The position numbers and the translations under genes were made by a program. From positions 1-26,661 of the IMG/VR virus record IMGVR_UViG_3300046012_000564: a DNA stretch of 26,661 nucleotides; one strand, 5' to 3'. Position 1 is the stretch's first letter, and every line of letters starts with the position of its first letter. The DNA comes from a virus. The notes under the pieces were generated by a model. That model was not told the origin of the DNA and made no database searches. It saw nothing but the letters and a program-made list of their open reading frames with translations. Shown one piece after another: positions 14,218 through 19,073 of the stretch.

Positions 14218-15582
14218 ATGCCTTCTGAGCTCAGGGAGGCGTTGACCGCCGCCGGTGCGTCCGCCCTCATCCCGAAGATCATCGACCCGATGCTGTTGGA
14301 GTACCAGCGTCGCTACTCCCCTCTGGTCCGGATGATTCCGTCCCAGAAGTGGAACTCGGACACCTACTACTTCAACCAGCGCACGGTGAACCCCAACGGC
14401 GGGTTCGTTGTGGACGGTGGCGCGCGTGTCGTGTCGAACTCGACCTACGTGCAGAACTCGTTCCAGATCAAGCACCTTCAGGTTGTCGGCGCAATCACCG
14501 GTTACGCCCAGGAAGTCACCCGTCAGGTGATCGGTGACCTGCGAGCACGGGAAATTGAGGGATCCATCAAGGGTCTCTACTGGGATATTGAGAATGCTCT
14601 CCTGTGGGGAAACGCGGGCTCCACTCAGTTCGGACCGTACCCGCAGTTCGATGGCCTGGACTCGCTGATCAACACCTACAGCGGTGGAAACCAGAACGCC
14701 CAGGACAAGGCGGGCGCGACGCTCACTCTGGCGCAGCTCGACGAACTGATCGACATGGTGGAGACCAACGCCGCCATGAGCGTGTTCGACTCGTCGTGGA
14801 TGCTCGTCATGAGCAACACTGCCGCATCGAAGGTTGCTCAGCTTCTGACCAACCAGCAGCGGTTCATGGACCGCGTGGAGGTGGCGGCCGGTCTACTTGT
14901 GCCGACCTACCGTGACATCCCGTTCGTGAAGTCGTCGTTCATGTCCACCCGCTCCATCCAGATGGGCGCGGTCACATCGGCCACCGCCACCACCGGTGGA
15001 ACGCTGGCTGCGGCCACCTACTCGTACAAGGTGTCCGCGATCATCGCCCGTCAGGGCGAGATCGCCGCATCGGCCGAGGTTTCCCAGGCCACATCGGGAT
15101 CCACCTCGACGGTGACTCTGTCGTTCTCCACACCGACCGGCCTGGACGGACTCCAGCCGACCCTGTACAAGGTGTACCGCTCCACCGCGACCGGTGCGGA
15201 GACGCTGTTGGGATACGTGGACGCGAACGTCGGATTCTCGGCGGACGGCATCACACCGATCCTCACCACGTCCATTGTGGACACTGGGGCGACGCTGATC
15301 GCACAGAACGGCTCGACCCAGCCGGGCACGTTCCCGGCGACGTATCAGGGAACCAACACCAGCAAGTTCCCACCGGCCGTGGGCCAGGAGAACATCTACC
15401 TGGTGTCGCGCGACTACGACAACATCTGCCGTCCGTACGTGCGCGAGCTGACACCGCTGGACGTCTACCCGACTACGGCAAGCCCGGACAGCCTGCCGTA
15501 CGCCATCACCGCTGACACCGTGCTGGCCGTACGCGCGCCGAAGTACCTCGGTGGCCTGTACCGCGTCAACACGGCGGTCTGA
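14218..15582 (+). CDS. Major capsid protein with Ig-like insertion
   Basis: The ATG at 14218 follows TTGAGG. The 454-residue product has the HK97-type layout: an N-terminal helix and spine ('ALIPKIIDPMLLEYQRRYSPLVRMI'), an E-loop region around 50-100, a peripheral domain ('LTLAQLDELIDMV', 'WMLVMSNTAASKVAQLL') and a C-terminal strand ('YAITADTVLAVRAPKYLGGLYRV'). Between about residues 251 and 362 a beta-rich, Thr/Ser/Gly-rich stretch intervenes ('AATYSYKVSAIIARQGE', 'STVTLSFSTP', 'YKVYRSTATGAETLLGYVD'), the strand pattern of a fibronectin/Ig-like domain found on phage surfaces. There is no separate delta domain, since scaffold is coded upstream. Hairpins flank the gene on both sides. Confidence 0.88.
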   Translation: MPSELREALTAAGASALIPKIIDPMLLEYQRRYSPLVRMIPSQKWNSDTYYFNQRTVNPNGGFVVDGGARVVSNSTYVQNSFQIKHLQVVGAITGYAQEVTRQVIGDLRAREIEGSIKGLYWDIENALLWGNAGSTQFGPYPQFDGLDSLINTYSGGNQNAQDKAGATLTLAQLDELIDMVETNAAMSVFDSSWMLVMSNTAASKVAQLLTNQQRFMDRVEVAAGLLVPTYRDIPFVKSSFMSTRSIQMGAVTSATATTGGTLAAATYSYKVSAIIARQGEIAASAEVSQATSGSTSTVTLSFSTPTGLDGLQPTLYKVYRSTATGAETLLGYVDANVGFSADGITPILTTSIVDTGATLIAQNGSTQPGTFPATYQGTNTSKFPPAVGQENIYLVSRDYDNICRPYVRELTPLDVYPTTASPDSLPYAITADTVLAVRAPKYLGGLYRVNTAV

Positions 15583-15668: not shown

Positions 15669-15694
15669 GTGCGTCCACAATGGAGGTTCACATT

Positions 15695-15964
15695 ATGTTG
15701 CTGCGTAAGGCAAAGGCCGGATCCGACTCGTTCGGACACACCTGGGACAACGATGGGGACACGGTTGAGGTCCCCGACGCGGAAGCTGCAATCCTGCTCC
15801 GCATCGTCGATGCCGGATTCAGTGAAGTGCATGAGCCGCAAGGAAACTTCGCCGAAGTGGCACCAGAAGCGTTCCCCGCCAAGGCAAACCCGAACAAGCT
15901 CGCCACCCTCAAGCCGAAGAACCCTGTCAGCAAGGGAATCGACCTCGACACGTTCACGGAGTGA
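15695..15964 (+). CDS. Small acidic head-region protein (89 aa)
   Basis: The ATG at 15695 is eight bases after GGAGG; an in-frame ATG at 15680 would include the ribosome binding site itself and is less likely. The product begins 'MLLRKAKAGSDSFGHTWDNDGDTVEVPDAEAAILLRI', a pattern I associate with small proteins coded just after the major capsid gene in actinophages. Its Pro/Lys-rich tail ends 'ISLDTFTE'-like ('GIDLDTFTE'). It may be a minor head or connector-associated protein. The first 60 residues look like a small beta-rich domain. Function is not established. Confidence 0.7.
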   Translation: MLLRKAKAGSDSFGHTWDNDGDTVEVPDAEAAILLRIVDAGFSEVHEPQGNFAEVAPEAFPAKANPNKLATLKPKNPVSKGIDLDTFTE

Positions 15965-15967
15965 GCC

Positions 15968-16639
15968 ATGGCACTGGATTCGCCCACCCCGCTTGCCACG
16001 GCGGCGCAGATGAAGCAAGGGGCGTTCGCGGACCTGGTGCGCAGCTTTGGTGACGACGCCCTGAACGAGATCATGGTAGAGGCGACCCGGGCGTGCGAGA
16101 CCGAGACCCAACGGCGTCTCGCCCCGTTCGTCGGACACTTCGAAACCCACCGCTGCCAAGGAATCGACCCCGACGAGTACACCGACACCGCGAACCTTCC
16201 ACTGGACCTACAGGGCACCTTGGGACGCTCCTACGCGTACGCCATGGGCGCGTCCACCCTGGTCCGTCACCTGTGGCTCAACGAATACGCGCCCCTGTAC
16301 CCGGAGTACTGGAATTACAGCAACATCTCCCTGGAGATCGTCCGCTCCTACGGCGGGTCGGAAAACCTGGTGACGACACAGTTCGAGGGGCCGGAGGTCG
16401 ACTCCGGGCACGTGTGGTTCAACCTCGGGAAGTTCATCCCCATTGGCTCGCTGGCCCGTGTCACCTACTCCGGCGGGTACTTCACCGTCCCCGCCGACCT
16501 GGTCCGCGCCTGCAAGTACATGGCCGCTGCCGTGTCGTGCCGCGAGCTGGACCCCATGCTTCAGTCCCAACACGGACATGACCCGGACAAGCTGGAAGCG
16601 CTTGCCGTGTCGTGGCTGTCGCCGTACATGCGGAGCTGA
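15968..16639 (+). CDS. Head-to-tail adaptor (connector) protein
   Basis: The 223-residue product starts four bases after the previous stop. It is helical at the start ('FADLVRSFGDDALNEIMVEATRACETETQRRLAPF'), beta-rich in the middle with a conserved-looking 'SYGGSENLV' loop, and ends with helices ('ADLVRACKYMAAAVSCREL', 'DKLEALAVSWLSPYMRS'). The 'YSGGYFTVPADLVRAC' segment is typical of phage adaptor proteins of the HK97 gp6/SPP1 gp15 group, in which extended 'GG-x-VP-x-DL' precedes the last helices. It binds the portal and forms the first connector ring. Gene order (after capsid, before tail genes) agrees. Confidence 0.8.
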   Translation: MALDSPTPLATAAQMKQGAFADLVRSFGDDALNEIMVEATRACETETQRRLAPFVGHFETHRCQGIDPDEYTDTANLPLDLQGTLGRSYAYAMGASTLVRHLWLNEYAPLYPEYWNYSNISLEIVRSYGGSENLVTTQFEGPEVDSGHVWFNLGKFIPIGSLARVTYSGGYFTVPADLVRACKYMAAAVSCRELDPMLQSQHGHDPDKLEALAVSWLSPYMRS

Positions 16640-16642
16640 CCC

Positions 16643-17158
16643 GTGGCCACCCGTAGGGGCCATGCGCTGTCCGCCGAGACACGGGTGAAGATCTCCAAGG
16701 CCCTGAAGGGAAAGAAGCACAAGGGACACGCCTTGTCGTCGACGGCGCGGGCGAAGATCTCCGCTGCCCTGAAGGGGAAGAAGCATCCGCACGCCGGCCA
16801 TGCTCTATCGGCCGCGACGCGGGCGAAGATCTCCGCTGCTCTCAAGGCGCATTACGCGGCGACTTCCCGTCCCGGCAGTCGAAAGCCCCGGTCGGCGGGC
16901 GCGGGCGGGCGACGCGCGGCCAACCCGAGGTCCCTGGCGAACCTGAAGCGACCGCAACGCACCCGGCCCGCGAAGTACGCATTGGCGCGGGGAAGCCGGA
17001 CCCGCAAGTTTCACAGTGGAACGCATCGGCTGATCTCGTCAGCCACCTACCACAAGCACACCAGCTCCATTCACGGCATCCGCAAGCGTCGGACCCGGAT
17101 CGTCATTCACAAGAGGGTGCGTCACCACCGCGTGTGGCATCGACGCAAGCGGAGGTGA
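16643..17158 (+). CDS. Very basic protein with three NUMOD3-like repeats
   Basis: The GTG at 16643 follows GGAG and lies four bases after the adaptor stop. Residues about 6-71 hold three copies of a motif like 'GHALSAETRVKISKALKGKK', matching NUMOD3-type modules that bind DNA in homing endonucleases. The remaining 100 residues are extremely rich in Arg, Lys and His, ending 'HKRVRHHRVWHRRKRR'. No GIY-YIG or HNH motif is present, so this is not a complete homing endonuclease. In its slot one would expect a head-closure protein, but the composition does not fit one. It may bind DNA in the virion connector or during packaging, or be a degraded mobile-nuclease remnant. The open frame and regular spacing argue that it is functional. 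Confidence 0.75.
   Translation: MATRRGHALSAETRVKISKALKGKKHKGHALSSTARAKISAALKGKKHPHAGHALSAATRAKISAALKAHYAATSRPGSRKPRSAGAGGRRAANPRSLANLKRPQRTRPAKYALARGSRTRKFHSGTHRLISSATYHKHTSSIHGIRKRRTRIVIHKRVRHHRVWHRRKRR
16746..16839 (+). repeat. Internal DNA repeat coding NUMOD3-like modules
   Basis: A 22-base word is identical at 16746-16767 and 16818-16839 (it includes GCGAAGATCTCCGC), a spacing of 72 bases or 24 codons. It encodes 'RAKISAAL' in repeats two and three; repeat one (from about 16680) is more diverged. The identity points to recent duplication or gene conversion. Confidence 0.85.
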
Positions 17159-17163
17159 GTTGA

Positions 17164-17664
17164 ATGTCCACAGCGGACGCCGTGCAGCGGGAGACGTCAT
17201 GGTTGTCCCAGTTCGGTGACGGGCTTCCGGCGTTGCTGAAGGTGAATGACGGCCCATGGGATGTGATCAACGCCTACTGGCCGCGAACGCCGAACTACAA
17301 CCTCAACGGCATCTACGTCATGCGCTCCCGGCTGATCGATATTCGGTGGTCCAACCAGCGCAAGTTGCCTAGGCATTCGTTTCGACTGAAGTTGTTGTGG
17401 CGCATCGGATCCACCACAACCGGCGTGAGCATCGGCGAAGTGGAACAAGCCAACTTCGACGCCGCCGTCGACCTTCTGTTGCAACGGTTGCGGGGGACGT
17501 TGGGCAACAAGACCCACGGCGGTCGGTTTCTGTCGGTGGCGGAAGCGCCGGGGACGAACCCCGAGATTCCCATCGACTTCGACCCGCCGGAAACGACCAT
17601 GGAACGTGGATACCTCTCCGCGACCGTCAACTACCAGGCCGATGATCTGGAAGACACCATCTAG
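17164..17664 (+). CDS. Tail terminator candidate
   Basis: The ATG at 17164 follows GGAGGTGAG. The 166-residue product has an N-terminal mixed region ('GDGLPALLKVNDGPWDVINAYWP'), strands around 'YVMRSRLIDIRW' and 'SFRLKLLWRIG', a helix 'EVEQANFDAAVDLLLQRLRGTL' and a C-terminal strand pair 'ERGYLSATVNYQADD'. This strand-helix-strand plan and the position shortly before the major tail gene fit a tail terminator, which caps the tail tube and joins it to the connector. An alternative is a tail completion protein. The assignment is from topology and gene order only. Confidence 0.55.
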   Translation: MSTADAVQRETSWLSQFGDGLPALLKVNDGPWDVINAYWPRTPNYNLNGIYVMRSRLIDIRWSNQRKLPRHSFRLKLLWRIGSTTTGVSIGEVEQANFDAAVDLLLQRLRGTLGNKTHGGRFLSVAEAPGTNPEIPIDFDPPETTMERGYLSATVNYQADDLEDTI

Positions 17665-17685: not shown

Positions 17686-17907
17686 GTGTTGCAGCGCAAC
17701 GTGTCGGGCGGTCCCCTCATCCTGCCAACACTCGAACCGCCCGCGCAGGTGTTTCCGGGCGACATCATCGAGTGCGAAAAGCCGTTGGCGGGATTCGAGA
17801 TCGTACCCGACGAAAAGTCCACTGTGGACGAAAAGCCTGTGGTGATCCCACCACAGAAGGAAAAGGCCGCCCCGTCGGCCGCGACTGACGAGGAGGCGAG
17901 CAAGTGA
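17686..17907 (+). CDS. Small protein before the major tail gene (73 aa)
   Basis: The GTG at 17686 follows CCGGAGG. The product has a short beta-like first half ('GGPLILPTLEPPAQVFPGDIIECEKPLAGFEIVP') and a charged, Lys/Glu/Pro/Ala-rich second half. Small proteins with a similar start stand directly before major tail genes in many actinophages; their role is not known to me. It overlaps the major tail gene by four bases (GTGA), so the two are translationally coupled. Confidence 0.7.
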   Translation: MLQRNVSGGPLILPTLEPPAQVFPGDIIECEKPLAGFEIVPDEKSTVDEKPVVIPPQKEKAAPSAATDEEASK

Positions 17908-19073
17908 CTCAGCTTTCCCGCCTTGCCATTCTGGGGATCGCCAAGGAGACCGTGGCGGGAACCTACGTCGCGCCCACGACGTACATCCCCTTCACCAAGG
18001 CCGATTTCGAGGACGTCTACACCGAACTCAAGGACGAGTCGTACCGCGCCAACGACACCATGTTGCAGGGCATGTACCAGGGGCCGGTGCACGCCACGTG
18101 GGATATCAACGTCATGGCGTACCCGGACTTGATCGGGCACTTCCTTCGGGGCATCATCGGCCCGGACACGGTGACCGCTGGCGTCACGACAACCCTCGCT
18201 GCCAGCTCCATTGCCGGCGCAACCACCTTGTCGTCCACCGCGTCGATTGCCATGAACAGCTACATCAGGATCGGCACCGGAGCGACGACGGAATACGCGT
18301 TCGTCTCCGCCGTCTCCGGCACCGGTCCGTACTCGCTGACTGTGACAACCGTTGTCGGTCAGACGGTGGGCCTGACGCTGCCCCACAGCTCCGCTGACGC
18401 GCTCGTGTCGGCCAGCTCGCACAAGTTCGCCCAGTCCGCCACCCCGTCCACCAAGGCGACGTACAGCCTCACCGTGTACGACACCACGGGAACCCTGGGC
18501 TACTCCGGCGCGGCCATGTCGGACCTCGCGCTGAAGATCGACCCGAAGGCCGTCGTCACCCTGGACGTCAAGTACATGACGTTCCCTGGCGTGACCCAGT
18601 CGGCCATGACCCCGACCTACACGGCGTTGCCGCCGATGCTCGGCTGGGAATGGAACATGACCAACGCGGGCGGCTCCTCCACGCGCGGCCTGACGTTGGA
18701 CTACGCGATCAAGCGCGCAGTAGAGCCTGTGCATTCCAGCGACGGAATCCAGGCCCCACGCGAGATCTTCCAGGGCGCGTTGGACGCGGACGGCACATAC
18801 AAGACGATTTTCGAGAACCAGACGGACCTGAACCTGTACCTGAACTACACGCAGACGCCCACCACCGCGCTGCTTCAGGAACCGGCGTCGGGAACCAACG
18901 GCATGGGCGCGTCGCTGGCTGTGACCATGTCGAAGTCCGGTTACTTCAAGGGAAAGCGCGACCTGTCGTCCAGCTACGTGCAGGCCGATTTCTCTCTGTC
19001 CGGCATCTACAACGCCACTGACGGCGGCGCGCTGACCGCGACCCTGGTCAATTTCCAGACTGCCGCGTACTGA
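17904..19073 (+). CDS. Major tail protein with inserted beta domain
   Basis: The GTG at 17904 starts a 389-residue protein. Its first part ('LSRLAILGIAKETVAGTYVAPTTYIPFTKADFEDV') and last part ('SLSGIYNATDGGALTATLVNFQTAAY') have the look of siphovirus tail-tube subunits. At about residues 92-165 a Thr/Ser/Ala-rich beta stretch intrudes ('TTLAASSIAGATTLSSTA', 'YIRIGTGATTEYAFVSAVSG'), resembling a small surface domain often seen in phage structural proteins. The gene is followed at once by a strong terminator hairpin and by the frameshifted chaperone genes, the classical order for a major tail protein. Length is above average because of the insertion. Confidence 0.85.
   Translation: MTQLSRLAILGIAKETVAGTYVAPTTYIPFTKADFEDVYTELKDESYRANDTMLQGMYQGPVHATWDINVMAYPDLIGHFLRGIIGPDTVTAGVTTTLAASSIAGATTLSSTASIAMNSYIRIGTGATTEYAFVSAVSGTGPYSLTVTTVVGQTVGLTLPHSSADALVSASSHKFAQSATPSTKATYSLTVYDTTGTLGYSGAAMSDLALKIDPKAVVTLDVKYMTFPGVTQSAMTPTYTALPPMLGWEWNMTNAGGSSTRGLTLDYAIKRAVEPVHSSDGIQAPREIFQGALDADGTYKTIFENQTDLNLYLNYTQTPTTALLQEPASGTNGMGASLAVTMSKSGYFKGKRDLSSSYVQADFSLSGIYNATDGGALTATLVNFQTAAY

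Follow-up and report, generated by a model that had tools for sequence, protein, structure and literature searches.

A nuclease-free, hyperbasic NUMOD3 array among the neck genes of actinobacterial phages, a putative DNA-binding accessory protein

Why should a gene made of homing-endonuclease modules, and devoid of a nuclease, lie among the genes for the head-tail connector of a phage? The question is raised by an open reading frame in a virus record of 26,661 bases, the whole of which was analysed (the window). The original prediction suggested that its product might be a virion DNA-binding protein at the DNA exit channel or a domesticated homing-endonuclease fragment, in the place where a head-closure protein is expected. 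The gene order around it is major capsid protein, a small gene, adaptor, the NUMOD3 gene (hereafter the slot gene), a 166-aa gene, a small gene, tail tube, further genes and tape measure, with the following features:

14218..15582, + strand, major capsid protein gene (SU10_MCP; phrog_752)
15968..16639, + strand, head-tail adaptor gene (phrog_442, E=3.5e-8)
16632..16635, + strand, GGAG, likely ribosome-binding site within the 3′ end of the adaptor gene, read from the sequence
16643..17158, + strand, gene for the NUMOD3-array hyperbasic protein, 171 aa, GTG start
17164..17664, + strand, tail terminator gene (166 aa) by predicted fold (AlphaFold and Foldseek)
17686..17907, + strand, small gene, conserved ahead of the tube gene
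17904..19073, + strand, tail tube gene (Phage_tube_2, E=6.6e-13)

The 166-aa gene downstream of the slot gene had no family match, and a PHROGs search was likewise empty. Its AlphaFold model, built from 85 relatives with a pLDDT of 88.4, matched in Foldseek the R4C stopper-terminator complex, lambda gpU and T5 p142 (best E 1.6e-5), a predicted fold that supports its identification as the tail terminator. With phrog_442 upstream and a predicted lambda-gpU-like terminator fold downstream, the location originally proposed for the gene, between an adaptor and a tail-terminator candidate, is borne out. Searches of solved structures with the adaptor and terminator profiles returned nothing useful, and the small neighbours at 15680-15964 and 17686-17907, weighed as head-closure candidates, gave no informative match.

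The GTG start of the slot gene lies 3 nt past the adaptor stop codon, with GGAG seven bases upstream, and its own stop codon is five bases from the next gene. A crude codon-usage gene caller skipped this frame, which we attribute to its odd composition. A spurious open reading frame is ruled out by a dN/dS of 0.25-0.27 against three close relatives, a GC3 of 0.81 in its own frame (family mean 0.85) and the existence of homologues of this frame across dozens of relatives. The dN/dS of the slot gene was 0.15-0.55 in 17 of 18 pairs, for the majority of pairs higher than the adaptor value yet clearly constrained, although these ratios are rough because many dS values are near saturation; in the exceptional pair, L081/L084, the proteins are 44% identical and the adaptor ratio is also near 0.8. 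To judge from these codon comparisons, the gene has been maintained and is not mere debris. The median distance between the slot gene and each neighbour is 3 nt, and these short gaps on both sides therefore indicate co-expression with the late structural genes.

The product combines three modules with a long basic tail, as follows:

16658..16708, + strand, NUMOD3 module 1 (GHALSAETRVKISKALK), residues 6-22, model helix 11-21
16724..16774, + strand, NUMOD3 module 2 (GHALSSTARAKISAALK), residues 28-44, model helix 33-43
16796..16846, + strand, NUMOD3 module 3 (GHALSAATRAKISAALK), residues 52-68, model helix 57-74
16865..17155, + strand, Arg/Lys/His-rich basic tail (ca. 100 residues), predicted unstructured
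17024..17155, + strand, conserved C-terminal motif (HRLISS...RTRIVIHKRVRHHRVWHRRKRR), common to 20 members at any module number

The Pfam family NUMOD3 (PF07460) matched the protein with 48.3 bits (curated cut-off 20.4; E=9.5e-13) and matched neither any of five composition-preserving shuffles nor the overlapping antisense frame. An artefact of chance or composition is excluded by the shuffles, together with the retention of the non-acidic NUMOD3 positions described below. The Pfam scan found no GIY-YIG, HNH or other nuclease family, and the match to phrog_314 (homing endonuclease) was weak. With 49 Lys plus Arg, 16 His and a single acidic residue, the protein has a net charge of +48 in 171 aa, the extreme excess of basic residues seen in protamine-like viral DNA-condensing proteins. 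The modules, the stretch dominated by Arg, Lys and His and the lack of a nuclease, all first noticed from the sequence alone, were thus confirmed, and a nuclease-free protein of this sequence is compatible with both proposals, a virion protein that binds DNA and an endonuclease fragment that was domesticated. The next most basic gene called in the window, an ORF of 336 aa at 711-1721 on the minus strand, has a net charge of +34.

The slot protein, adaptor and terminator served as queries for scans of IMG/VR and GTDB genomes, which yielded 97 clusters after sequence-sharing loci were merged; occupancy was counted in the 91 that hold both adaptor and terminator. Of these 91 dereplicated relatives, 74 have a hyperbasic protein among their neck genes, and in 66 this protein contains NUMOD3 modules, in 1-10 copies. 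The NUMOD3 protein lies exactly between the adaptor and the predicted terminator in 58 relatives and just past the terminator in eight, while another eight have a hyperbasic slot protein without recognised NUMOD3 modules (L096 and L140 included). The gene is missing in 12, where the adaptor runs straight into the terminator and the order is otherwise unchanged; no other hyperbasic protein was found in the fetched flanks of these relatives, many contigs in the set being fragments. Other slot content was seen in five (L042, L066, L122, L137 and L142), that of L066 being weakly basic. The slot of L042 (6753-7529) holds a non-basic ORF of 258 aa with a hydrophobic stretch and no Pfam match, apparently an unrelated inserted gene. 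Those of L122 (5286-5954) and L137 (4260-4826) hold ORFs with a basic N-terminus and a longer, more ordinary domain that has a conserved-looking Cys-Ala-Glu/Ala-Ala stretch and no Pfam match.

Prophages carrying these loci sit in genomes of Streptomyces, Catenulispora and a member of the Streptosporangiaceae, so the hosts are actinobacteria; the terminator is present in 5 of 294 sampled genomes of the Streptomyces order, and such prophages are therefore uncommon. One that has the slot gene is the prophage of Streptomyces olivoverticillatus CECT 3266 (L151). On an adaptor tree the slot states cluster, needing 15 changes where shuffling gives a mean of 31.6. Most of the rows without the gene fall into one group with Streptomyces prophages, and the displaced position past the terminator requires at least two changes. 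Since this tree is quick, with many weak forks and no outgroup, gains and losses of the slot gene are not ordered here. Between L088 and L113, identity is 90% for the slot protein and 87% for the terminator, against 58% for the adaptor, which suggests recombination between the adaptor and slot genes.

Slot proteins are mostly 140-250 aa long, and their modules are spaced most often by 22 or 24 residues. Lys, Arg and His make up 43% of the family composition and Asp and Glu 0.8%, with 34 of 71 slot proteins having no acidic residue at all, unlike the capsid, adaptor, terminator and tube proteins, which are slightly acidic. Only three of the 1067 other genes called in these loci are equally basic, and all three are slot genes too. 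NUMOD3 matched 54 of the 66 members scanned, and a nuclease domain was found in none of the 66. An acidic residue is present in 10% of the modules of slot proteins versus 96% of those in homing endonucleases sharing these modules, a comparison made with a simple module pattern on 11 nucleases chosen by eye; in the nucleases the acidic residues fall mostly in the SEET segment. Because the NUMOD3 pattern outside the acidic positions is strongly kept over 255 modules, the helix probably still matters, and loss of acidic residues with the other positions kept is the pattern to expect from selection acting on charge while the helix is preserved.

The C-terminal motif shared by the 20 members is roughly LISA...RIVIHR..RAHRVWxRRRR. 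The array seems to be exchangeable while the tail is kept, because L061 has HYHLKHKRR-like repeats in place of the NUMOD3 array and a C-terminus that groups with those of the NUMOD3 members L050, L057 and L058, L084 and L205 mix both kinds of repeat, and a third, FxAHKGR-like kind occurs in L096, L124, L140 and L143. The NUMOD3-free slot proteins L034:6663-7175, L039:5042-5650 and L061:1978-2625, with net charges of +88 to +93, consist of HYHLKHKRR-like repeats or Lys/Arg-rich sequence. In the longer slot proteins L226:414-1490 and L037:3230-4240, degenerate module-like repeats continue past the NUMOD3 array.

The AlphaFold model of the window protein, a low-confidence one from 21 sequences (mean pLDDT 65, pTM 0.23), has three isolated helices, one per module, followed by a low-confidence tail, with no global fold. 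The only relative among solved structures (PDB) was the DNA-binding domain of I-TevI, a weak match (E=0.5) aligned over its NUMOD3 stretch; this domain has a minor-groove-binding helix (PMC1564403). From the model we infer a beads-on-a-string DNA binder, in which each module would lay one short helix in the minor groove, as in I-TevI, the His/Lys/Arg linkers and basic tail would neutralise backbone charge, and the conserved C-terminal motif may anchor the whole on a neck protein. The slot protein would most probably act on the DNA end that is packaged last, gripping, covering or shielding it within the connector or tail channel. A neck or virion role would be the most economical reading, and we give an even chance to the explanation that the window gene encodes a late-expressed, nuclease-free, putative non-specific minor-groove DNA-binding accessory protein of the neck or virion interior, domesticated from endonuclease modules. 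Against it, a DNA-bound protein could not easily cross the portal during packaging, so that a neck or prohead route would be needed, and some relatives manage without the gene. Additionally, minor-groove helices would not be essential to the job, since unrelated basic repeats replace NUMOD3 in L034, L039 and L061.

A protamine-like neutraliser would be an alternative job. More tentatively, we regard it as possible that the slot protein is a protamine-like virion nucleoprotein built from multiplied, acid-stripped homing-endonuclease modules, which would neutralise and lock the DNA end at the neck of actinobacterial siphophages. The general view is that tailed phages package naked DNA, whose charge is neutralised by small cations; if this reading were true, it would provide a protein component for DNA neutralisation in such phages. 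Extreme basicity and repeats are shared with baculovirus P6.9 and ascovirus P64, the latter joining a repeated motif to a basic region (PMC6163548). These are proteins of eukaryotic viruses, with other repeats and no sequence relation found to the slot protein, and their virion presence and DNA condensation have been shown, whereas for the slot protein both are putative. A possible parallel in role is T4 gp2, an accessory head-completion DNA-binding protein missing from some relatives, which shields the ends of packaged DNA and can be dispensed with in recBCD hosts (PMC2993671); no homology was detected between it and the slot protein, and the two may be comparable in role, not in ancestry.

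It is rather unlikely that the protein is instead a late-stage nucleic-acid binder acting inside the cell, made with the structural genes and not part of the virion, which might for example compact phage or host DNA, help packaging or regulate expression. Virion presence of the slot protein is indeed putative, and the DNA-binding domain of I-TevI doubles as a transcriptional repressor (PMC3943268). Genomic position bears on this alternative in both directions. NUMOD3-only basic proteins also occur in clusters whose structural genes are of other kinds, again with genes of the neck or portal around them. The gene follows a phrog_442 adaptor in L200, lies upstream of the tube gene in L188, L204 and L220, and in L163, which has a different major head protein family, precedes a tail completion/Neck1 gene (phrog_26), a preference for neck-adjacent places in several phage types that argues against a purely intracellular binder. 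In L178, with similar proteins in L190 and L212, the gene lies between the terminase large subunit and the portal, as such a binder might. Its extreme charge and variable module number, on the other hand, suit non-specific better than regulatory binding.

That charge alone matters is less probable still; the protein would then be a polycation with acidic protein surfaces, RNA or the cell envelope as its targets, and NUMOD3 merely a convenient source of basic repeats. Charge is better conserved than sequence, and HYHLKHKRR or FxAHKGR repeats can stand in for NUMOD3, as this would predict, but the strong retention of the non-acidic module pattern speaks against it.

A neutral or decaying remnant of a selfish homing endonuclease that has lost its nuclease is very unlikely. 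The NUMOD3 origin and the weak phrog_314 match would fit, as would the gene-absent relatives, which the original prediction had named, in combination with absence from virions, as favouring a selfish insertion; on gene order such relatives do exist (12 of 91). Despite them, a selfish insertion is disfavoured by the occupation of the same slot across a deep tree, the purifying selection on the gene, the nuclease-free members and the systematic loss of acidic residues, and the sporadic insertion typical of homing endonucleases is not what the 58 of 91 relatives with the same slot and the clustered states display. Least credible of all is the head-closure (stopper) role implied at first, which matches siphophage stoppers in its position between adaptor and terminator, with no other stopper recognised, but which we reject because the place is not fixed (gene absent in 12 and beyond the terminator in 8 of 91 relatives), the low-confidence model predicts no globular, ring-forming domain, and L163 has a separate Neck1/tail-completion gene besides its NUMOD3-array gene.

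A putative DNA-binding accessory protein of the neck or virion interior would place a known module in an architecture and a setting that are both new. The modules are those of homing endonucleases (I-TevI, PDB 1i3j and 1t2t; phrog_314, phrog_655), with the helix pattern [ST]xxxRxKI[SA] kept; unlike these enzymes, the slot protein is nuclease-free, has nearly lost its acidic residues, joins 1-10 module copies to a conserved basic tail, occupies a constant position among the neck genes and is widespread within a phage lineage. A tblastn search of 50,697 phage records with the window protein, adaptor and terminator found relatives for none of the three; among cultivated phages, a search with the window region found no relative carrying the gene, and further slot proteins used as queries matched nothing or, for the most part, homing endonucleases. 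A literature search, with most subscription papers outside its reach, found no virion protein described as containing NUMOD3, and wider reading yielded analogues only. The slot protein would amount to more than a known module in a new setting only if it both resided in virions and condensed DNA.

Homing endonucleases are seen as parasites, and a conserved hyperbasic array of their modules among the neck genes points to the recruitment of parasite components for the particle or for its assembly. The slot protein is a concrete candidate for holding, protecting or compacting siphophage DNA at the head-tail junction, and genes of this kind will be mislabelled as homing endonucleases. Other NUMOD3-only architectures were also seen. 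L178:4734-5357, L190:4782-5291 and L212:2419-2928 encode a hyperbasic one with a different basic N-terminus; L208:4971-5600 encodes a hyperbasic product of 209 aa (net charge +54) and lies outside the neck cluster, downstream of a match to a tape measure; and the 222-aa ORF L201:2258-2926 consists nearly entirely of NUMOD3-like repeats, is nuclease-free and keeps its acidic residues (SPETRARIAAA).
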